40,370 nt of DNA from Burkholderiales bacterium (GCA_013044025.1 JABEVD010000125.1:1-40370), one strand, 5' to 3'. Shown: positions 1,562 to 23,231, counted from the first letter of the stretch. Notes: generated by a model not told the origin, from the letters alone. A program made the numbers and translations.

Positions 1562-2050
1562 ATGCCCTCTTTCGACATCGTCTCGGAAGTCGACAAGACG
1601 GAGGTCAAGAACGCGGTCGAGCAGACCAACAAGGAAGTCGGCACCCGCTTCGATTTCAAGGGTTCCGACGCCCGCGTCGAGCAGGCCGAACTCGAGCTCA
1701 CCCTCTTCGCCGACAACGACTTCCAGCTCGGCCAGGTGCAGGACATCCTGAACGGCAAGCTCACCAGGCGCGGCGTCGACATCAAATGCCTGGAAGTTCC
1801 GGAAAAGATCAAGAAAATCAGCGGCAACAAGGTGAAGCGCACCTGCAAGGTGAAGGTCGGGGTGGAATCCGATCTCGCCAAAAGGATCGTCAAGCTGATC
1901 AAGGACAGCAAGATGAAGGTCCAGGCGAGCATCCAGGGCGACACGGTGCGGGTTTCCGGCGCCAAACGCGACGACCTGCAGGGCGCGATCGCCCTGGTGA
2001 AGAAGGGCGTCAGCGATTTCCCGCTGCAATTCCAGAATTTCAGGGACTGA
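1562..2050 (+). CDS. yajQ: YajQ family nucleotide-binding protein
   Basis: [37 protein letters not shown]... ends QFQNFRD, typical of the family. Confidence 0.96.
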
Positions 2051-2051
2051 G

Positions 2052-2591
2052 ATGAAGGTACTGATTCCGCTGGCGGAAGGCTTCGAGGAAATCGAGGCGG
2101 TCACCGTGATCGACCTGCTGCGCCGCGCAGGAATCGAAGTGACGAGCGCCGGGCTCGATAAAGGGCCGGTCGTGGCGAGCCGTGGCGTGGTGCTGATCCC
2201 GGACACCGAACTCGACTCGGTTCTCGATGCCGCATTCGACATGCTGGTGCTTCCGGGAGGCGCAGGAACGAAGCATTTGCGCGAGGACCCGAGAATCCTT
2301 TCCCTCGTGAAAAGGATGAATCAGGAAGGAAAATGGGTCGCCGCGATCTGCGCAGCTCCTTCCGTGCTCGCGGTATCCGGAATTCTCGAAGGAAGGCGCG
2401 CCACCTCGTTTCCAGGATCGCTGGAAGCTTGCGGACACCCCAACGAGGGAACCCCTCTTTTTCGGGACGGCAACATCGTCACTTCGCGCGGTCCGGGCAC
2501 CGCCATGGATTTCGCCCTGGAGCTCGTCGAAATCCTCTCGGGGCGGGAGAAGAGGCAGGAAGTCGAGGAAGGGCTCAAGCGAGATTTTTGA
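2052..2591 (+). CDS. DJ-1/PfpI family protein (YajL/ThiJ-like)
   Basis: MKVLIPLAEGFEEIEAVTVIDLLRRAGIEV and nucleophile elbow VAAICAAPSVLA. Confidence 0.93.
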   Translation: MKVLIPLAEGFEEIEAVTVIDLLRRAGIEVTSAGLDKGPVVASRGVVLIPDTELDSVLDAAFDMLVLPGGAGTKHLREDPRILSLVKRMNQEGKWVAAICAAPSVLAVSGILEGRRATSFPGSLEACGHPNEGTPLFRDGNIVTSRGPGTAMDFALELVEILSGREKRQEVEEGLKRDF

Positions 2592-3270
2592 TCCAGGCGC
2601 CGTAAATCGTTGCCGCAATGCGGTTCAGATTGACAACCCTTTCCCCGAGTCCTTCCCGGATCGATTCGGCACCCTGAACGCTCTCCGAAAGATGCGCTTC
2701 GATTTCTGCAGCGCCATGCAGACACCAGGCCTCCACCATCTCCGAAGTCATTTCCACATGGCATTGCAGCCCGAGGTGCGGCCCCACCGCGAAAGCCTGG
2801 TTTTCGCACCATCGACTCGATAGCAGGCGCTTCGCCCCGGATGGAATGGAAAAGGTTTCCCCATGCCAGTGGAATGCCTCGAAGGAATCCAGTCCGCCGA
2901 ACCAGGGGCAATCCGCTTCGACCACGTCCACCCTGCCCCAGCCGATTTCGCGGAATTCGTTGCGGCCCACCGTGCCGCCCAACGCTTTGGCCATCAGTTG
3001 CCCGCCGAGACAATGCCCGAGAACCGGGATGTCCCGGTCCATCGCATCGCGGATGAGACGAAGGGAATGGGAAATCCAGGGAAGGTCGTCGTTCACGCTC
3101 ATCGGCCCGCCCATGAACACCAGGCCGGAATAAGGGGATGCGCTATGCGGCACCGCTTCCGCCCGGTCCACCTTGACGATTTCCCAGGGAATGGCCGATG
3201 CATCCAGAAATTCGCCCAGAAAACCAGCTCCCTCGGTTTTCGCATGACGAAAAATCACCACAGGTTTCAT
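2575..3270 (-). CDS. class I glutamine amidotransferase-like protein (GMP synthase GATase-like)
   Basis: VLGHCLGGQLMAKALGG nucleophile motif, GLQCHVEMT; stand-alone GATase domain. Confidence 0.88.
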   Translation of the reverse strand: MKPVVIFRHAKTEGAGFLGEFLDASAIPWEIVKVDRAEAVPHSASPYSGLVFMGGPMSVNDDLPWISHSLRLIRDAMDRDIPVLGHCLGGQLMAKALGGTVGRNEFREIGWGRVDVVEADCPWFGGLDSFEAFHWHGETFSIPSGAKRLLSSRWCENQAFAVGPHLGLQCHVEMTSEMVEAWCLHGAAEIEAHLSESVQGAESIREGLGERVVNLNRIAATIYGAWIKNLA

Positions 3271-3361
3271 ACGCGCCTCGCAAAATTTGCCACGGGAATC
3301 TTAGCCGAGCGTGGCCCGGTCCGCAATCCTCTGTTAAAATCTGTTTTTTTCAGGAACGCCC

Positions 3362-4459
3362 ATGTCAGGAAACACCCTCGGTACGCTATTCACCGTCACC
3401 TCCTTCGGCGAAAGCCACGGACCTGCGATCGGCTGCGTCGTGGACGGCTGCCCGCCCGGAATGGAGCTTTGCGCGGAAGACATTCAGAAGGATCTCGACC
3501 GCAGGAAGCCGGGCACTTCGAGACATGTGACGCAGCGGCGCGAATCGGACAGCGTGGAGATCCTCTCCGGCGTATTCGAAGGAAAAACCACCGGCACCCC
3601 GATCGGACTCCTGATCCGCAACGAAGACCAGAGAAGCCGCGATTACGGCAACATCATGGACAGCTTCCGTCCCGGACATGCGGACTACACCTACCTGCAG
3701 AAATACGGGATCCGCGATCATCGCGGAGGTGGAAGATCTTCCGCACGCGAAACCGCAGTCCGGGTAGCTGCGGGCGCGATCGCAAAAAAGTGGCTCCACG
3801 AGCGGCATGGCGTGGTCATCCGCGGCCACCTCTCGAAGCTCGGCCCGATCGAAATTCCCTTCGTCTCCTGGGAAGAGGTGCAAGCCAATCCGTTTTTCGC
3901 GGCGAACGGGGCAATCGTCCCGGAACTGGAAGCCTACATGGATTCGCTGAGAAAATCCGGAGACTCGGTGGGCGCAGAAATCACGGTGGTCGCCGAAAAC
4001 ATGCAGGTGGGATGGGGCGAACCCGTCTATGACAGGCTGGATGCCGAAATCGCCTATGCCTTGATGAGCATCAATGCGGTGAAGGGAGTGGAAATCGGAG
4101 ACGGTTTCTCGGTCGTCGCGCAAAAGGGTAGCGAACACGGCGACGAAATGACCTCGGAAGGTTTTCTCAGCAACCATGCGGGCGGCATCCTGGGCGGCAT
4201 CTCGACCGGGCAGGACATCGTGGCGAGAATGGCGGTGAAACCCACTTCCAGCATCCGGCTTCAGAGGCGCAGCATCGACAAAACCGGTGCGGATACCCTG
4301 GTCGAAACCCATGGCAGGCACGACCCATGCGTGGGCATTCGCGCCACCCCGATCGCGGAAGCGATGCTCGCGATCGTGCTCATGGACCATGCGCTGCGGC
4401 ATCGTGCGCAGAATGCGGACGTGATCTGCGCCACGCCGAAACTCCACGGAAAAAGCTGA
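3362..4459 (+). CDS. aroC: chorismate synthase
   Basis: [33 protein letters not shown]...; GRSSARETA; full-length. Confidence 0.98.
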
Positions 4460-11242: not shown

Positions 11243-12554
11243 CTTGTGTCGGCAAATGCAGCACGATCAGGAAATTGGAATGTTTTCCGTCCGGATTCGG
11301 AACCCGCGCAAAACGGCTTTCCACCCGGACTTTTGCGCCGCCCCCGGTCGAAAGCGTCACATCGACGGGATGCACATTCCGGATCAGGGCTTCGGCGAGC
11401 AGATCCTCGAGCCCCATTTTTCCCTCGAATTTGAGCAGTTGCGTTGCATCGACTCCCGCCGCCTCTTCTGCATCGACGCCGAGGAGTTTTTCAGCGGCAG
11501 GATTGAGTCCGGTCACGATTCCTTGCGGATCGACATCGAGCACCGCATCGCCCGTCATCTCCTGCAGGAACTTCGTGCGCATGTTCTCGATTTTTGCGAC
11601 ATGACGCTCCGCCTCGTAGGATTCCAGCGTCCTGCAAAGCTGGGCATTGGCCGATTCGAGAACAGAAATCCTTCTTTCCAGAAGTTCCGTCATCCTCGAC
11701 ACCCGCTGCTCCAGCCGGTAACGATGCTCCGCCAGCTCCTCTTCCATCGCCTTCTTTTCGGTGATGTCGAGCATCACCCCCTGCAGGTACATCATGTTGC
11801 CCGTTTCGTCCCGGACCACGCTCGCCTCGTCGTGGAACCAGCGGGTCTCTCCGGCGCGGGTGAGCATGCGGTAATCGCAGCGGAAGGATTCACCGGTATT
11901 GCGACTGTGCAGATAGGATTGCATCACCGCATCCCGGTCTTCTGCATGGATCTGCTGAAAGCGCAAATCCCGCCTTTCCAGCCATTCCTCGACCACGAAT
12001 CCGAGCCGCTCGATCTGCGGACTCACGAAGATCAGTCTGCCTTCCTCCTCGAAACTCAGGATGTAGGTGATGGAGGGAAGATGCTCCACCAGCCTGCGGT
12101 ATCTTTCTTCCGCAGAACGCTTTTCTTCCAGCAGCCTCTGTCCGCTCAGCACGCGCTGGATGACCGCAGGCAGCAGCTCCAGATACCGCCCTTCGCTGTC
12201 CTTGATGAGGTAGTCTCGTGCGCCCCGCTTCATCGCCTCGACTGCGATGGCGATGTTGTCCGATCCGGTGAGCTTCAGGACCGGCACGTGGATATTGCCC
12301 ATCTCGTCTGCAATCTCGGCCAGAAAATCGAGCCCGGTCATGTCCGGAAGATGATAGTCGAGCAGGATGCAATCGAACTTGTGTTCGCGGGCGAGCTTCA
12401 ATCCTTCCTGGCCGGTATCCGCCTCGTAGAGTTCGAAATCGTAATCAGGATGTTTCTGCAGCGCCCTGCGACAGGCCATGCGATCCACGGCATCGTCCTC
12501 GACCAGGAGTCCGACGATGTGGCGCGAAAGCTTCCGGTCTTCTGCTTCGTTCAT
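11232..12554 (-). CDS. response regulator receiver with two PAS-like domains
   Basis: Receiver ILLDYHLPDMTGLDFL and KLTGSDN; PAS/PAC RYRRLVEHLPSITYILSF...YLQGVMLDITEKK; second PAS GDAVLDVDPQGIVTGLNPAAEKLLG; no kinase, GGDEF, EAL or DNA-binding domain seen. Confidence 0.88.
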   Translation of the reverse strand: MNEAEDRKLSRHIVGLLVEDDAVDRMACRRALQKHPDYDFELYEADTGQEGLKLAREHKFDCILLDYHLPDMTGLDFLAEIADEMGNIHVPVLKLTGSDNIAIAVEAMKRGARDYLIKDSEGRYLELLPAVIQRVLSGQRLLEEKRSAEERYRRLVEHLPSITYILSFEEEGRLIFVSPQIERLGFVVEEWLERRDLRFQQIHAEDRDAVMQSYLHSRNTGESFRCDYRMLTRAGETRWFHDEASVVRDETGNMMYLQGVMLDITEKKAMEEELAEHRYRLEQRVSRMTELLERRISVLESANAQLCRTLESYEAERHVAKIENMRTKFLQEMTGDAVLDVDPQGIVTGLNPAAEKLLGVDAEEAAGVDATQLLKFEGKMGLEDLLAEALIRNVHPVDVTLSTGGGAKVRVESRFARVPNPDGKHSNFLIVLHLPTQDAA

Positions 12555-12961
12555 GACGGCATCTCGCTGATCGTCCAGTAGGTGTTGATCGAACGCATCA
12601 CTTCGACAAACTGCCTGTAATCGACCGGTTTGGCCATATAGCCTGCAACCCCCAGTTCGAAGCTGTCCACCTTGTCCTTCTGTTCCGCAGAGGTGGTGAG
12701 CACCACGACCGGGATGGACCGGTATGCAGCATGCCCCTTCACCTCCTTCAGAAACTCGATCCCGCCCATCCTCGGCATGTTGAGGTCGAGCAGGATGATG
12801 CAGGGGCGATCCTGCAAAGCCAGGGATTGAAGCGCATCTTCCCCGTTTTCCATGTGCACCAGGGGATTGGTCACATGCAGTTCCTTCAGCGCGCGCTTCA
12901 CCGTCATCGCATCCACCTGGTCATCCTCGACCAGCAGGATTGGCTTGTTGTTAAGCCTCAT
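12551..12961 (-). CDS. single-domain response regulator (Rcp1/CheY-like)
   Basis: MRLNNKPILLVEDDQVDAMTVKRALKEL...CIILLDLNMPRMGGIEFL...VVVLTTSAEQKD. Confidence 0.93.
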   Translation of the reverse strand: MRLNNKPILLVEDDQVDAMTVKRALKELHVTNPLVHMENGEDALQSLALQDRPCIILLDLNMPRMGGIEFLKEVKGHAAYRSIPVVVLTTSAEQKDKVDSFELGVAGYMAKPVDYRQFVEVMRSINTYWTISEMPS

Positions 12962-14619: not shown

Positions 14620-15913
14620 TCAGTCGACGGAATCAGGCAGCAGGAGGTCGTTTCTCGTCAGGGGCAGCGCAAGCGGCCTCCTCGCCTTTTTCGCAGCAAG
14701 GATCTGGTAGAGACCGAGATAACCCGCCTCGAACTGCAATGCGCAAGCGGCCATGTACAGGCGCCATATCCTCCAGAGGCGCTCCGATACATGCTGCAGC
14801 GCATCGGCATGATTCGACTCCAGCCTCCTCACCCATTCTCTCAGGGTGAGCGCATAATGCTGCCGCATCGACTCGACATCGTGGATCTCGAAAAGACATT
14901 CTTCCATGCGGCGCAGGACATTGCTGACCCAGTCGAGCTCCCCCGTCCGGGAAGACATAGCGGTTGATGAATTCCGTCTCCACGCAGCTCACCCAGCCGT
15001 CTTCGTCGTGGGTGATGCCGTGATTGAGAAAGAGTCCGCCCGGCATCAGCAGCCTGTGCACCAGGGAAAAATACATGTTGAGGTTTTTCAGGCCGACATG
15101 CTCGAACATGCCGACGCTCGCAATCTTGTCGTAAATTTCTTCTCCCTGCAGATCGTGGTAGTCTTTCAGTTCGACCGTGACACGGTCTTCGATGCCCAGT
15201 TCGGCGATTTTCGCTTTCACGAATTGGTGCTGATTGCGGCTCAGGGTGATGCCGTGGGCAATCACTCCGTAATGCGTGGCCGCGCGGATGAGGAGCCCTC
15301 CCCATCCGCAGCCGATGTCGAGAAAATGTTCCCCTTCCCGCAAGCGTAGTTTCCTGCAGATGAGGTCGCGCTTGTTCTTCTGGGCTTTTTCAAGGGAATC
15401 CGAATCGCTCGTGAAATAGGCGCAGGAATAGTTCATCGCCTCGTCCAGCCACAGGCGATAGAATTCGTTGGAAACGTCGTAATGGTAGCCGATCGCCCGA
15501 CGGTGTTTTTCCCGCTCGCCCGAAAAACCGGAATGCCATTTCCTGGGAGGCCCGCGATCCTGCCTGACCGAATCGTCCTTCAAGCGCATGGCCTGGAGAA
15601 AAAGGGCCAGTTTTTCGTCGATGGAAAACTTCAGATCCTTCAGGGAATCCTTGAGTTCGATGGCAGGATAGATGCTTCCTTCGATGTCCAGGTTTCCCTC
15701 GACATAGGCGCTGGCAAGTCGCATCGGGTCTGCATGGAGCACGAGATCCCGGAGCGTTTCCTCCCGGTTGAAAACCAGCGTGCAAGCGGATTCCCTCCCG
15801 CCGAAATCGAAGGTTTCGCCGCTCCACAGCCTGATGGCGAGGTGACTTCGGCCGAACAATTTTTCCAGGATCCCGGCTGCGCTGCTTTGCTGCACTTTCG
15901 CGTCCATACCCAC
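14620..15913 (-). pseudogene. cfa: cyclopropane-fatty-acyl-phospholipid synthase, interrupted by an apparent +1 frameshift
   Basis: N-terminal part in the 15913 frame (FLDIGCGWGGLLIRAATHYG, ...EFINRYVFPDG) continues in the 14620..14958 frame (GELDWVSNVLRRMEECLFEIHDVESMRQHY...); junction is a five-C run at 14940-14944 (+ strand). Confidence 0.85.
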
Positions 15914-17497: not shown

Positions 17498-17860
17498 TCA
17501 GAGAATGTCCGCGATGCTCTTCGCTGCGCGCTTGGTGTCGAGGAATATGAGACCCAGTTTCGCGTCCTTCCTCGCGATGACCGTGAGAACCGCGTCTTTT
17601 CCCGCATGGCTCATCAGGATGTAGCCTTCCTCACCCTTCACCATTACCTGTTCCAGCGTCCCCCTGGAAAGCTCCCTCGCCGTGCGCTCCCCGAGGGAAA
17701 GCATGGCTGCCGCCATCGCGCCGACACGATCTTCATCCACTTCCTTGGGCAACAGGGCCACGATCGTCAGGCCGTCCGAGGAAATGATGGCTGAAGCCTC
17801 GATATCGGCCGATGCGCCGCTGAGGTCGCTGAGAATAGTTCTTAGTATTTGTTCCCGCAT
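17498..17860 (-). CDS. roadblock/LC7 domain protein
   Basis: 120 aa; LSDLSGASADIEASAIISSDGLTIVALLPKEVDEDRVGAMAAAMLSLGERTARELSRGTLEQVMVKGEEGYILMSHAGKDAVLTVIARKDAKLGLIFLD, characteristic of the family. Confidence 0.88.
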   Translation of the reverse strand: MREQILRTILSDLSGASADIEASAIISSDGLTIVALLPKEVDEDRVGAMAAAMLSLGERTARELSRGTLEQVMVKGEEGYILMSHAGKDAVLTVIARKDAKLGLIFLDTKRAAKSIADIL

Positions 17861-17950
17861 TGTTGTCTCCTGACTTGACTACTGCATTATAACCCGCTTC
17901 CCGGATTTTTTTCATGAACAAATGAAGATGCGTCCACTCTTTGCGAATTT

Positions 17951-18586
17951 TCAGCCATACCGATAGCTGAGCGCCTGCACCAGGGTCACGAATTCGTCCC
18001 CCTGCAGCCTGGGAGCGCCATCGATGATCAGCACAAAGGACTGATTTCCCATGTACATCGGAAAAAAACCCAGCTCGGACTGACCCGCCGGGTCCATGAT
18101 CGCCCAGGCGTTGCTGTTGATGTTCAGATTGTTCTTGAGAAGCAAGGCATGGCGGTTGCTCATGGTGAGGATGTCGCCAGCCAGCGCCGCAATCTCGACT
18201 GCCGCCTCGTGGTAAAAACCGGAAGTCACCAGATAGAATCCGCTGTCATCGGCGAGAATGGAGCGTCCCGTACTGGAAAGTGAGGCCAGCAGATTGGGCA
18301 GGATCGACTCCAGGCTTCCCTGTGGCATCCGCTTCGGCGTTTCCGTCCCGCGCACGAAATCCAGTCTCTGCAGCCGGTACAACAACTGCACCGCGTCGTC
18401 AGGAGAACCGAGTTCGGACCAGGCCATGAGCTGTTCTTCGGAAGGAGGACGGTTCGTCCCTTCCGTCAAAAGCCTGATCAGCATTTTTCTGGCGCTGTCG
18501 AGATGGGCGCTGGCAACCGCGTAATACGCACCTGCCGGCGTGACCTCTGCAAACAGCGAGCGGTTTAACGTCAGTATATCCGGCAT
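17951..18586 (-). CDS. uncharacterised protein; N-terminal winged-helix-like, C-terminal roadblock-like region (tentative)
   Basis: LESILPNLLASLSSTGRSILADDSGFYLVTSGFYHEAAVEIAALAGDIL...SFVLIIDGAP resembles the roadblock pattern; ATG directly follows the GTPase stop (TGAAATG). Confidence 0.6.
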   Translation of the reverse strand: MPDILTLNRSLFAEVTPAGAYYAVASAHLDSARKMLIRLLTEGTNRPPSEEQLMAWSELGSPDDAVQLLYRLQRLDFVRGTETPKRMPQGSLESILPNLLASLSSTGRSILADDSGFYLVTSGFYHEAAVEIAALAGDILTMSNRHALLLKNNLNINSNAWAIMDPAGQSELGFFPMYMGNQSFVLIIDGAPRLQGDEFVTLVQALSYRYG

Positions 18587-18587
18587 T

Positions 18588-19130
18588 TCAACCTTCCAGC
18601 CCCGGGTCGATCGAGAACAACATCGCCATGACGAGATTCTTCACATCCTCGCGACTTCTGCCATCGATCTCGAAAATCGGCGGGCGCATGCCCATTTTCT
18701 CCAGCATCCTGGCATAGGTTCCCGCGGTCGGAGTCGGCTTGAGATCGGTCTTGGTGACCCCGATCACGACCGGTGCCCCTTTCAGCATGTCCTTGAATGC
18801 ATCCAGAAAGAACTCCATGTCCTTTTCCGGATTCTGCCTGCTGTTGTCGAGCAGCAGGATCAGGCCGATCGCGCCGTTGCTCAGGATTTCCCACATGAAA
18901 TCGAAGCGCTCCTGGCCGGGCGTTCCATAAAGATGGACCTTCGATCCGTCGTCGAGATGCAGCAGGCCATAATCCATGGCCACCGTGGTATACCCCTTCC
19001 TGTTCAGCGTCATGTCGGAAGCATTCGCATCCGTGGTGACGGGCGGAATATCGCTGATCGCACCGATGGCCGTGGTTTTCCCCGCACCCACGGGACCGGT
19101 GAAAATGATCTTGTTGTCCAGCTTGCGCAT
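18588..19130 (-). CDS. small Ras-like GTPase of the conservon CvnD / MglA-like type
   Basis: FTGPVGAGKTTAIGAISD (G1), HLYGTPGQERFDFMWEILSNGAIGLILLLDNS (G3 region), IGVTKTDL (G4). Confidence 0.9.
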   Translation of the reverse strand: MRKLDNKIIFTGPVGAGKTTAIGAISDIPPVTTDANASDMTLNRKGYTTVAMDYGLLHLDDGSKVHLYGTPGQERFDFMWEILSNGAIGLILLLDNSRQNPEKDMEFFLDAFKDMLKGAPVVIGVTKTDLKPTPTAGTYARMLEKMGMRPPIFEIDGRSREDVKNLVMAMLFSIDPGLEG

Positions 19131-19148
19131 CCAGTCTCTCCCCTTTTC

Positions 19149-20261
19149 TTACAACCCGACAATCCTGCGCAGCAACCTGGAAAGCATTCCTCCCTTGGCT
19201 TCGTCCTTCACGAGCACCGGCTCGACGGGCGGCGTCTCGGCCGCTTCTCGTCTGGATTCGATGACATCGAGCAAGCCGATGCTGTAGGCTGCAGAAAGAA
19301 AATCAAAAAGATTCGCAGGCGGTACATTCAGCATGCGCACCGCGACAGGAAGACTGGAAGGCGACCTCACCAGGAAAGCGGCCATCCGGAGCGCATTCGG
19401 GATGGGCGCCATGCGCGTCAGATTCGGCCAGTATTTCAGCTTGACCGGCGCATGCACCGGGATTCCGTCCGGCAGCCTGCCGCGGCTCGTCCAGATCGCC
19501 ACCTGCCAGAGCAGCCCGACGAAATTGGAGACCACGATGTTGCGGTTGTCCGGCTTGTCTTCCTTCTGCAGCGCACGGGTGGTGATGATCACCCCCTCGT
19601 TTTCGCATGCGTTTTTCAACTGAGTCAGATCCTGAAGCACCATCACCCTTTCCTGCTCCGGAAACACGATGAGGCTGTTCTGGTTTGCGATCATCACCAT
19701 GCTCGGGCGCTTCGCCTGCAGGATTTCCTGCAAGGTGCCGAGCAGTCCGCGAGTCGGATCGAAACGACCGACCTGCTCCGGCATCTTCTGCATGGCAGGC
19801 TGCGAGGAAGGCGCGTTCACCGAAGAAGGAACCGGCTGGGATGCGAGTTCCGGCTGTGCATTCTGCACGACTTGCAGCGGCGGGGACTGGGGCGGGGACT
19901 GGGGCGGATTCTGCCGGCCCGGCGTGGTGCGCTCCGATAACACCTGGCGCAACAGGGGGAACAGCGTTTCGATCCTGACCGGCTTCACCAGCACCGGCAC
20001 CGGCGCATCCGGCAGGGAAATCATGCTGACGATGAGGGTCGGCAGGTCCGGATTTTCACTGCCATGGTTTTCCCAAAGCAGGTTGCCGTCCACGCAGTCC
20101 ATATCTACGATGGCAAGATCAGGCTTCATGCCGATCGCATCCTCGGCCAGTTCGTACCTTTGCATGGTGTGCATCTTGAATGCCATGCGAAACACAGCCT
20201 GCTTGCGACTGTCCATGCCCACCGTCTTTACACAAATCACCTTGTTTTGCGTCGCGCTCAT
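19149..20261 (-). CDS. uncharacterised protein with degenerate N-terminal receiver-like domain
   Basis: KPDLAIVDMDCVDGNLL and PVPVLVKPVRIETLFPLL resemble receiver beta3/beta5, but the beta1 acidic pair is absent; central Q/P-rich linker; conserved-looking C-terminal region; SD GAGGAA. Confidence 0.7.
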   Translation of the reverse strand: MSATQNKVICVKTVGMDSRKQAVFRMAFKMHTMQRYELAEDAIGMKPDLAIVDMDCVDGNLLWENHGSENPDLPTLIVSMISLPDAPVPVLVKPVRIETLFPLLRQVLSERTTPGRQNPPQSPPQSPPLQVVQNAQPELASQPVPSSVNAPSSQPAMQKMPEQVGRFDPTRGLLGTLQEILQAKRPSMVMIANQNSLIVFPEQERVMVLQDLTQLKNACENEGVIITTRALQKEDKPDNRNIVVSNFVGLLWQVAIWTSRGRLPDGIPVHAPVKLKYWPNLTRMAPIPNALRMAAFLVRSPSSLPVAVRMLNVPPANLFDFLSAAYSIGLLDVIESRREAAETPPVEPVLVKDEAKGGMLSRLLRRIVGL

Positions 20262-20271
20262 CTTGCGTTCC

Positions 20272-21789
20272 TCATGCTGCGATCTGTTGTGTTCTTAGCT
20301 GCAGGCGCTTGTACAAACTGTTCATCATGGAAATCACTTCGGCCGGCGGCCTTTGCGCACGCTTCTTGATTTCCGAAGCCATGCTGGTGAAGCGCGCAAG
20401 CGCGTCCATGCGATCGTACAAATCGAGCAGCGGCCTGTAGAGCTGCACTTTCTGCGGATCGGCAAGAATTTCACGTTCGAGCAGTTCGAGCGCTTCGTCG
20501 ATCTGCCCATATTCGATATAGGAATCCACTTCGGCCAGGACCGCGTCTCCATCGTGCCCGGTTTCGTAGGTCTCGTTGGATACCGATGCGCTTACGAGAT
20601 CCAGCCCTTTCGAAGTCACCATTTCGACCGGATAATATCCGAAATTCCTGCCGATTGCCTCGAGATGGCGCCGCTCCTTCGCCTGAGCAAGCGCTTCCAG
20701 AACCGGATGAGTCCCCATCGAGAACCCCACGCCGAGCAGCCTTTCCTTCAGGTCGCTGCCATAATTGTCCAGCACGTTGAAAAGCTGCCAGAGCGTCTTC
20801 GCATATTCGTCGACTTCCTTCCTGAAGTAATACAGCTTCAGGATTTCGGTGAAATTGACCAGCGCTTTGGGCTGCTCGACAATCGCGCGCTTCAGGACCG
20901 GAATCGCGCATTCGTAATTCTGGAAGGAAAGATACAGTTTCGCAGCCAGCGCTGCAGGAACCAGGGTATCGATTACATCGCGCTCCTGGCTGGAAAGCGG
21001 ATCCAGCGGTGCAGTCCCTTCCACCACCTGCTTGCCGAGGCGGGGCGCCGCACGCCTTTCGGCCGGGGGAGCGGCGGGCTTTTCCGCGGATTCCCGGATT
21101 TCTTCGCGCGCAGGAACGGGCCTGACCTCTTCCGGAGCGGGCGCGGCCGGCTTTGTCGGTTCCACCGGCGGGGCAGGCTTGGGCGCTTCCGGAACGCCGC
21201 CCAGGATGGAATTGATTTTTTCGAAACTGATTCCCAGGCAGGCTTCTGCGAACACCCGAAGCTGCAGGTTGCCGCTGTCTTCCTTGAGTCCTGCGACGAA
21301 CGCCCGCTTGAGGAAATCGGCTCGCTCGCCCGCCTCCGACAATTTTTCCAGAACCAGCGCGTAATTGTCGATCTGGCTGAGCTGGAAATAAACCTGGAGC
21401 AGCTTGCGCAAGGCATTGAGGTCGGAATGGCCGGCGCTGCTGTCTACATACCAGCGCAACGTCTCCGCGGCCCGCTCGTAGTATCCGTATTCGATATAGA
21501 TGTCCACGCCCTCGAGGGGATCGACCTCGCTGACCTCGATGACTTCGCTGGTGCGAACGCCGGCTGTCTGCGCCTCGACTTCTGGCGCAGCACTTTCCTG
21601 CGCGCTCCATTGTCCGGCCTCGTTCTTCCTCGACTTGATCTTCTGTACCGCAAGCTTCTTCGCAGCCATCGACCTGTTTCGATGGACCAGGAAAAACAGC
21701 GCCGCGATCAGCACGATCACGCCTGCTGCTGCGCCAAGCGTGACCGGGTCGGCCAGGATTTCCTCAACTTGTTCGATCAGATCCTCCAT
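20272..21789 (-). CDS. FimV-like membrane-anchored TPR protein
   Basis: Single N-terminal TM (LGAAAGVIVLIAALFFLVH) and two FimV-type segments (SEVDPLEGVDIYIEYGYYERAAETLRWYV; LAEVDSYIEYGQIDEALELLEREI) with helical repeats between; no LysM. Confidence 0.7.
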   Translation of the reverse strand: MEDLIEQVEEILADPVTLGAAAGVIVLIAALFFLVHRNRSMAAKKLAVQKIKSRKNEAGQWSAQESAAPEVEAQTAGVRTSEVIEVSEVDPLEGVDIYIEYGYYERAAETLRWYVDSSAGHSDLNALRKLLQVYFQLSQIDNYALVLEKLSEAGERADFLKRAFVAGLKEDSGNLQLRVFAEACLGISFEKINSILGGVPEAPKPAPPVEPTKPAAPAPEEVRPVPAREEIRESAEKPAAPPAERRAAPRLGKQVVEGTAPLDPLSSQERDVIDTLVPAALAAKLYLSFQNYECAIPVLKRAIVEQPKALVNFTEILKLYYFRKEVDEYAKTLWQLFNVLDNYGSDLKERLLGVGFSMGTHPVLEALAQAKERRHLEAIGRNFGYYPVEMVTSKGLDLVSASVSNETYETGHDGDAVLAEVDSYIEYGQIDEALELLEREILADPQKVQLYRPLLDLYDRMDALARFTSMASEIKKRAQRPPAEVISMMNSLYKRLQLRTQQIAA

Positions 21790-21807
21790 TGACCGGCGTA
21801 TTCCTGC

Positions 21808-22578
21808 TTACGGAACCTGATAGTCCGCCTCGGTCACGAGATCCGTCCCGCACTCCAGAGTCTCGATCCAGTCGATGAAGCGGTTCACCATTTCCTTTCC
21901 CTTGAAATAGCCGCCATGCTGGGGAACGATGCATTCGATATCGAGTTTCCTGCCCATGGCCGCCCACAGTCTGCAAACCTTGTTGTTCGACATGTAGCGC
22001 TGATGAAAGCCCACCGAATGAGCGGTCTCGAGATGCCTGTCGAAATCCGCGATCGGCTGACCTGCCTGGGCTCCATCCATCAGGGAAGCGCCCATGTCTC
22101 CAGAAAACAGGATCTTGCTGACCGGATCATAGACCTGGAAATTGCCCACCGCATGCAGATAATGCGCCGGAACGATCTTGAGTTCGGTTTCCCCGAGCTT
22201 CAGGTTCATTCCGCCTGGCTGGACCGGAATGACGCGTCCTTCCGTCAGTCCCTTGACACAGAAATGCGGCAGGAATCGCTCCCATTCCCTGGCGATCACG
22301 ATGTTCGCATCGGTGATCAGCAGCCAGCCGTTTGCGGACGCGATGATGTCCGGATCCTCATGGGAAGCAAAAATGTATCGGGTATGCGAAGGCAGGACAT
22401 AATTGGCCATCTCCGCGAGCAGGTGCTTGTAGGTCAGATTGCCTCCCGGATCGAGAAGCATGGACTCTCCGTTGTCGACGATGAGAAACTGGTTGGACTG
22501 GATACCCTCTCCCTGAACCAGTTCGGTAAAGGCGATACATTTGTGGCTTCCATCGTCATAAAGTACTACTGCAGGCAT
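21808..22578 (-). CDS. ODP/flavodiiron-like metallo-beta-lactamase fold protein (candidate oxygen-binding diiron sensor)
   Basis: IFASHEDPDIIASANGWL, VPAHYLHAVGNFQVYDPVSKILFSGDMGAS, IVPQHGGYFKGKEM metal-ligand motifs; no flavodoxin domain; strong SD GGGAGGGGGA before ATG 22578. Confidence 0.82.
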   Translation of the reverse strand: MPAVVLYDDGSHKCIAFTELVQGEGIQSNQFLIVDNGESMLLDPGGNLTYKHLLAEMANYVLPSHTRYIFASHEDPDIIASANGWLLITDANIVIAREWERFLPHFCVKGLTEGRVIPVQPGGMNLKLGETELKIVPAHYLHAVGNFQVYDPVSKILFSGDMGASLMDGAQAGQPIADFDRHLETAHSVGFHQRYMSNNKVCRLWAAMGRKLDIECIVPQHGGYFKGKEMVNRFIDWIETLECGTDLVTEADYQVP

Positions 22579-22644
22579 TCCCCCTCCCAGCCGGCGCGCA
22601 TTGCTTGCCACGCACCATTTTCATTTTGGACACCAACATCCGGA

Positions 22645-23019
22645 TCACATCGTATGTGTCAGGCGAGCCGTTTTGGCTGCGCCACCGAGATGCTCCTCAA
22701 TTTTTCTCCGCAACATCTTGCTGTTGTCGCTTTCGTCGAAATGAACTCCGACGCCCTGCAAACGCCCGCCGTGACAACCCTTGGGCGTGATCCAAGTCAC
22801 CTCGCCGTTGGCCAGGATCTTCTCCGGCGCATCCATCAGGCTGAGCAATATGAACACTTCGTCCCTCAACTTGTAGGGGTGAACCGTAGGAATGAAGATC
22901 CCCCCGTTCTTCAGGAAAGGAATGTAGGCGGCTGCAAGGGCCGCCTTGTCCTTGACCGAAAGCGCGAGCATCTTCGGAATATCGGGCGCGGCCGCCTTCG
23001 TCGCAGTTACGTTTGTCAT
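22645..23019 (-). CDS. PilZ domain protein (type IV pilus PilZ-like)
   Basis: LALSVKDKAALAAAYIPFLKNGGIFIPTVHPYKLRDEVFILLSLMDAPEKILANGEVTWITPKGCHGGRLQGVGVHF. Confidence 0.88.
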   Translation of the reverse strand: MTNVTATKAAAPDIPKMLALSVKDKAALAAAYIPFLKNGGIFIPTVHPYKLRDEVFILLSLMDAPEKILANGEVTWITPKGCHGGRLQGVGVHFDESDNSKMLRRKIEEHLGGAAKTARLTHTM

Positions 23020-23144
23020 GTCTCCGTGACGCCCTCATTCCGGACCGTATTCATGGCCTCGCCGGATTGACCGAATTTACGGTGCCGGACGATAAGTCGC
23101 AGCCAGTCCGGGGCAACCGCCTTGTCCAAGATCACTTCCTTCAC
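23016..23144 (-). CDS. putative small protein (about 42 aa) translationally coupled to the PilZ gene
   Basis: GTG-started frame VKEVILDKAVAPDWLRLIVRHRKFGQSGEAMNTVRNEGVTET, stop TGA overlapping the PilZ ATG (ATGA); SD-like AGGAAGG upstream; upstream in-frame GTGs at 23153 and 23162. Confidence 0.45.
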   Translation of the reverse strand: MKEVILDKAVAPDWLRLIVRHRKFGQSGEAMNTVRNEGVTET

Positions 23145-23231
23145 TTCATCCACCTTCCTCACAGAATATCAAGCGTATGAAGCCTGAAACAGAATCCAAC
23201 GCAGAAACCATACCGGCAGGAATGCTTAGGC

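Follow-up and report, generated by a model that had tools for sequence, protein, structure and literature searches.

The locus described here is probably a Group 3 MglA/MglB switch carrying a plug-in oxygen or redox sensor, in which a signal would pass from the sensor to a roadblock protein, from there to a Ras-like GTPase and finally to the control of pili. The stretch of DNA that we analysed (the window, 40,370 nucleotides) is one whole contig (C200) of the 2.56 Mb draft genome of a Burkholderiales bacterium. ORF calls between 17498 and 23019 revealed seven close-set, co-directional genes on the minus strand:

22645..23019, minus strand: PilZ protein, type IV fimbriae assembly subfamily, 124 aa (PF07238, 1.3e-7; PDB 4f48/3cnr, 2.7e-29)
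21808..22611, minus strand: ODP-family diiron protein, putative O2/NO sensor, 267 aa (PF19583, 7.8e-68; PDB 6qrq, 9.5e-63)
20272..21789, minus strand: TPR protein with one N-terminal transmembrane helix (read from the sequence), 505 aa (TPR_14, 2e-5)
19149..20261, minus strand: degenerate receiver with a C-terminal winged-helix/PATAN-like domain, 370 aa (AlphaFold, Foldseek, family alignments, PMC4316618)
18588..19130, minus strand: MglA-family small GTPase, Group 3 type, 180 aa (PDB MglA, 8.5e-5; GTPGQ and DGR motifs)
17951..18586, minus strand: P2, an N-terminal helical (winged-helix-like) part followed by a C-terminal roadblock, 211 aa (AlphaFold model, pLDDT 93.5; Foldseek)
17498..17860, minus strand: RB1, a single-domain MglB-like roadblock, 120 aa (Robl_LC7, PF03259, 3e-17; PDB roadblocks, 7.7e-26)

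From PilZ to RB1 the intergenic gaps measure 33, 18, 10, 18, 1 and 90 bp, and beyond the seven-gene set 230 bp separate it from the next gene. The original prediction, made from the sequence of this stretch, had counted seven or eight genes. Seven are real, packed together as one co-conserved unit, and the eighth, upstream of PilZ, is at most an ORF of about 45 codons that overlaps the PilZ start and finds no matching frame in the same region of L027, a related locus. Elsewhere in the window, a cyclopropane-fatty-acid-synthase-like ORF (14620-15913, minus strand) has an apparent frameshift near 14950, with its C-terminal part in another frame (14620-14958); it seems to be a pseudogene or an assembly error.

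Comparison with 96 related GTPase loci showed that the core genes co-occur. In 72 of them a single strand carries the genes for the TPR protein, the receiver protein, the GTPase, P2 and RB1 inside 6 kb, nearly always in this order; these loci are spread over beta- and gammaproteobacteria, so that the gene set is not a chance assembly. A scan of named genomes yielded 80 loci, among them Neisseriales, Methylococcales, Thiotrichales, Acidithiobacillus, Zoogloea, Halothiobacillus and others. This core had been proposed as part of a candidate new module, a claim that is not supported, since Wuichet & Sogaard-Andersen (2014) had already published it: their Group 3 MglA system comprises a receiver/wHTH protein (the 'conserved unknown' of these systems), MglA and one or two MglB proteins in beta- and gammaproteobacteria (PMC4316618). 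The same set, a receiver protein (its C-terminal part tentatively winged-helix-like) with MglA and one or two MglB, is present in the window. Judged by its motifs and gene set, the core is a Group 3 system, and the overlap in taxa with the published set (Neisseria, Snodgrassella) supports a probable place in that clade.

The individual proteins agree with this assignment. The GTPase, which gives P-loop GTPase matches in Pfam and retrieves MglA structures from the PDB, carries YGTPGQERF (present in 82/96 relatives), TT in G2, TKTD in G4 and DGR in G5. Among its relatives, D[AGSV]R occupies G5 in 82 of the 96, and G4 often lacks the lysine, TQMD or TRMD being common. The window protein has GTPGQ in G3 and not the TVPGQ/arginine finger of Group 1. 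The earlier label 'CvnD/MglA-like' is thus right as to MglA and imprecise as to CvnD, Group 3 being related to the Group 2 conservons but distinct from them. That the GTPase is accompanied by two roadblock regulators, as predicted, is well founded. RB1 is a clear Robl_LC7 protein and, in alignment, bears the Asp-Gly pair of those MglBs that are coupled with MglAs of Groups 2-5 (described in PMC4316618). For P2, as for the receiver protein, Pfam gave no match in the window, but 26/45 members of the P2 family match Robl_LC7 and Foldseek with the P2 model retrieves MglB/roadblock structures in the PDB. The model of the receiver protein retrieves CheY-like receivers, and one Asp and a Lys-Pro pair are conserved in the family alignments; an acidic pair after strand 1 could not be found in the window sequence. 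By its model and sequence, the receiver domain is real but degenerate, as had been proposed. One Neisseriaceae genome has two receiver-GTPase-roadblock sets, the core operon (L051) and a divergent one (L155, 4600-6966, minus strand).

The ODP protein is equally well identified. Aligned to its best PDB relative, the oxygen-binding diiron protein 6qrq, it keeps the full set of ligand motifs (HEDPD, PAHYLH, SGDMGA and PQHG), which bears out both the domain and its metal site, and the Treponema denticola ODP is an O2 sensor in chemotaxis (PMC7666581). ODP genes adjoin the core in 11 loci. They lie upstream of it in the window and L027, in Hydrogenophilus and several loci of Neisseriales, and in L103, which on the ODP tree is a separate recruitment. 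In the other core operons ODP is replaced or absent, and we discarded the idea of a universal core component. A second ODP, 71% identical and sister to that of the operon, is found in the window's own genome (contig C85) directly upstream of a roadblock gene; there, on the minus strand and away from any GTPase (L037), the ODP gene (11839-12609) is followed by a divergent roadblock (~11520-11790). In a sample of 369 genomes, six ODP-roadblock pairs within 1 kb were observed outside the window's genome against 0.13 expected under random placement, the independent events being fewer than six because some pairs come from related genomes. As in the window's genome, ODP stands beside an orphan roadblock in 6 sampled genomes. 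In the ODP tree the roadblock-linked proteins fall mainly in two clades, apart from unlinked ones; outside the linked clades nearly all sampled ODPs lack a roadblock within 1.5 kb, and the linkage is not a general property of ODPs. At L242 (genome G023, 1968-3572, plus strand), directly upstream of an ODP gene, a roadblock domain forms the end of a 534-aa protein with an ExeA-type AAA ATPase-like start.

In order to find recurrent partners, we clustered the neighbour genes of the core loci. On the downstream side of RB1, or else between it and P2, there is a PAS protein of ~159 aa in 31 loci, whose best PDB match is the PAS domain of the Aer aerotaxis receptor (3e-37), and a protoglobin of ~187 aa in 5 loci, which matches globin-coupled sensors and, weakly, HemAT in the PDB. 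The same places are taken in 42 loci by a Phosphonate-bd (PhnD-like) protein of ~249 aa (L115, 12081-12830, and relatives) which has no obvious signal peptide, accompanies PAS and roadblock genes and is possibly a cytoplasmic ligand-binding input; the window's genome holds only distant matches to it (~21% identity). Sensors also stand beside orphan roadblocks: roadblock>PAS>PBP in Snodgrassella, roadblock>protoglobin in Thiothrix, roadblock>globin in Methylothermaceae, and several such pairs in one gammaproteobacterium. The orphan roadblock of Stenoxybacter has no adjacent sensor. At L226 a 158-aa protein with no Pfam match (3681-4157, minus strand) adjoins an orphan RB1-type roadblock in the usual place of the sensor and is a candidate unknown sensor.

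As an unbiased sample we searched 369 genomes of the class with an RB1 profile, which matched in 70. By Pfam and manual tally, a sensor gene was next or next but one in 37 of 70 roadblock loci read: PAS and/or PBP in 14, protoglobin in 11, ODP in 5, CZB in 2, FIST in 2, and a truncated globin, a GAF-histidine kinase and an MCP in the three others. Among the 70 loci read, the divergent ones with a second small roadblock-like gene had no sensor gene alongside, and in 43/96 GTPase loci no PAS, ODP or protoglobin occurs within 6 kb. Mapped on the GTPase tree, the sensor labels require 21 changes, compared with a minimum possible of 2, indicating that sensors came, went or were exchanged while the core stayed stable. 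At the level of gene context, ODP is one member of a set of interchangeable sensors, for the most part of the aerotaxis type, that stand beside these roadblocks, and it is the coupling of sensors to roadblocks of the RB1 family, whether operonic or orphan, that looks like the new part. A sensor-swapping design around a fixed GTPase switch seems to be previously undescribed; we found no description of the wider sensor-roadblock pattern in the open-access literature, which is weak evidence of novelty.

One link to type IV pili comes from PilZ. As claimed originally, the operon protein is a PilZ, and of the type-IV-pilus kind, matching 4f48/3cnr end to end over 108 residues. The genome has a second PilZ on contig C119, between HolB-like and TatD-like ORFs, and genome G043 likewise has two copies; the operon protein is a paralogue of the type-IV-pilus PilZ. 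Linkage of PilZ to the core is confined, among the sampled loci, to the window and L027, and it was rejected as a conserved core member. The window's genome contains pilM, and strong PilM matches are present in 47/50 genomes with RB1 and 234/319 of the others, a statistic that ignores relatedness; a clear PilM is missing from 3 of the 50, so a strict dependence on type IV pili is not supported. We infer an output to type IV pili, and an SgmX/FimV-type role for the TPR protein. The name 'FimV-like' given to the latter has no support in its sequence, which is that of a TPR protein with one transmembrane helix: in profile searches FimV matched 1/17 family members (E=0.02) and not the window protein, which lacks the combination of FimV core (LysM) and C-terminal domain. 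Relatives weakly match the PilW and SgmX TPR models, a merely suggestive result because TPR models cross-match. Genuine FimV-type genes, with FimV_Cterm above the cut-off, lie directly downstream of RB1 at L195 (1958-3064) and in similar positions in Thiothrix/Leucothrix, and in some gammaproteobacteria such genes beside RB1 would link the core to polar landmarks.

Together, the gene context supports the wiring of a sensor-roadblock-GTPase relay. The diiron site of ODP would bind O2 (or NO), and this would alter the activity or location of a roadblock protein, which in turn would serve the GTPase as a GAP, a GEF or an adaptor. With help from the receiver protein, in a RomR-like role, and from the TPR protein, in an SgmX-like one, the GTP-bound GTPase would then decide whether type IV pili form, or at what site, the operon PilZ being the possible link to pilus assembly. 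Twitching or attachment would in this way come to depend on oxygen or redox state, with neither a histidine kinase nor CheA involved. The step from sensor to roadblock is suggested by the repeated adjacency of their genes, that from roadblock to GTPase by the MglA/MglB precedent, and that from GTPase to pili by the kinship of PilZ, the Snodgrassella data (see below) and analogy with the Myxococcus MglA-MglB-MglC-RomR-SgmX system. The relay originally put forward, from an O2/NO sensor through a GTPase with roadblock regulators to the pole or pili, is favoured by recurrent sensor-roadblock pairing and a pilus-type PilZ, and loses its FimV-like effector.

Against this reading, ODP and PilZ are outside the widely conserved core, 43/96 core loci have none of the three main sensors nearby, 3/50 RB1 genomes show no clear PilM, and the Snodgrassella phenotype (see below) stems from a single evolved isolate. 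The main competing explanation, which we consider unlikely, is that the relay controls the receiver/winged-helix protein, and through it DNA binding and O2/redox gene expression, with pili as one target at most. The output may be transcription because the receiver protein has a C-terminal winged-helix-like part, which is conserved and has an invariant W/P/N/T/R motif, and transcription was the role suggested for Group 3 by Wuichet & Sogaard-Andersen (PMC4316618). However, the top Foldseek matches cover the receiver part alone and none is a DNA-binding protein matched via the C-terminal part, PATAN-type domains occur near MglA/MglB without demonstrated DNA binding (PMC4316618), and a PilZ paralogue sits within the operon.

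It is less probable still, and we give it little credence, that ODP is an enzyme (O2/NO scavenging, or another metallo-hydrolase/diiron activity) that protects the co-transcribed unit rather than serving as the sensor of the GTPase. Its metallo-beta-lactamase/flavodiiron fold would suit such an activity, and most sampled ODPs do not adjoin roadblocks; yet Pfam detects no flavin or rubredoxin domain in the window gene, the T. denticola homologue senses O2 for chemotaxis, and sensors of unrelated fold occupy the same position. That the genes are chance neighbours from several unrelated transcription units is very improbable: the 90-bp gap before RB1, an operon known from sequence alone and the restriction of PilZ to the window and L027 would allow it, but the other gaps are of 1-33 bp, the core order is held across beta- and gammaproteobacteria and the ODP-roadblock pairs far exceed the random expectation.

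Beyond this locus, we tentatively propose, with slightly less than even confidence, a widespread beta/gammaproteobacterial scheme beside two-component and chemoreceptor-CheA systems, in which sensor-roadblock pairs (ODP, Aer-PAS, protoglobin, CZB, FIST), several of them feeding one Ras-like GTPase, steer type IV pili or other surface structures. If true, oxygen or energy taxis could run through a GTPase. To our knowledge, the signals for bacterial small GTPases and roadblock proteins are known mainly from Myxococcus and Streptomyces. The recurrent pairing of a roadblock with an O2/redox sensor is a testable input for Group 3 MglA systems, and suggests that aerotaxis-type sensors can feed a Ras-like switch instead of CheA, which would be of relevance to Neisseriales, methanotrophs, Thiothrix and Acidithiobacillus.

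Several known systems resemble parts of the locus. The roles of MglA, MglB, MglC, RomR and SgmX in Myxococcus are established (cf. PMC7519303, PMC9481161). By functional analogy, the Myxococcus xanthus module likewise joins a GTPase, roadblocks, a receiver and a TPR effector acting on type IV pili, but it has a Group 1 MglA (TVPGQ, arginine finger), unclustered components, Frz input and no O2 sensor. Streptomyces conservons (CvnABCD) share with the window a GTPase, a roadblock, sensory input and the GTPGQ and DAR features; they belong, however, to Group 2 and include CvnC and the histidine-kinase-like CvnA, which are missing from the window operon, ORF calls and Pfam finding no CvnA-type histidine kinase among its seven genes. 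The T. denticola ODP, with its MCP homologue, is of the same diiron family with all ligands conserved, but acts on chemotaxis (CheA arrays), whereas the window ODP lies amid roadblock and GTPase genes. The published Group 3 system agrees in gene set, taxa, GTPGQ, DAR/DGR and the MglB Asp-Gly pair, although the partners given for it do not include a TPR protein, an ODP, an Aer-PAS, a globin or a PilZ, and sensors are not proposed (PMC4316618). In HGbRL of Methylacidiphilum a haem globin is coupled to a roadblock domain and its authors proposed globin-to-roadblock signalling; unlike the pairs seen here, it is an isolated fusion, reported to be confined to one genus, with no assigned function (PMC4476040).

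Finally, the Snodgrassella mgl locus bears on what an orphan roadblock may do. By Tn-seq all three mglB genes are beneficial in the gut (Meng et al. 2024, PMC11112851), and a G78R change in the orphan mglB-3, observed in one evolved isolate with a background control and not as a clean deletion, produced soft-agar flares and a competitive advantage, which the authors read as altered type-IV-pilus motility. A text search of that paper brought up neither a PAS domain nor the gene that follows the orphan. S. gandavensis, a congener, has its orphan roadblock at the head of a roadblock>PAS>PBP arrangement, and the G78 of this roadblock (numbered from MKYDF) aligns with the family-invariant glycine, G79 of RB1; from the orphan status and the G78 match, we infer that this roadblock is the same gene as mglB-3. 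The colonisation phenotype would thereby gain a candidate signal. The sampled Snodgrassella cores differ from the window in having no ODP, and share with it the same Group 3 core, here with an orphan mglB that affects pilus-dependent motility and colonisation (PMC11112851).
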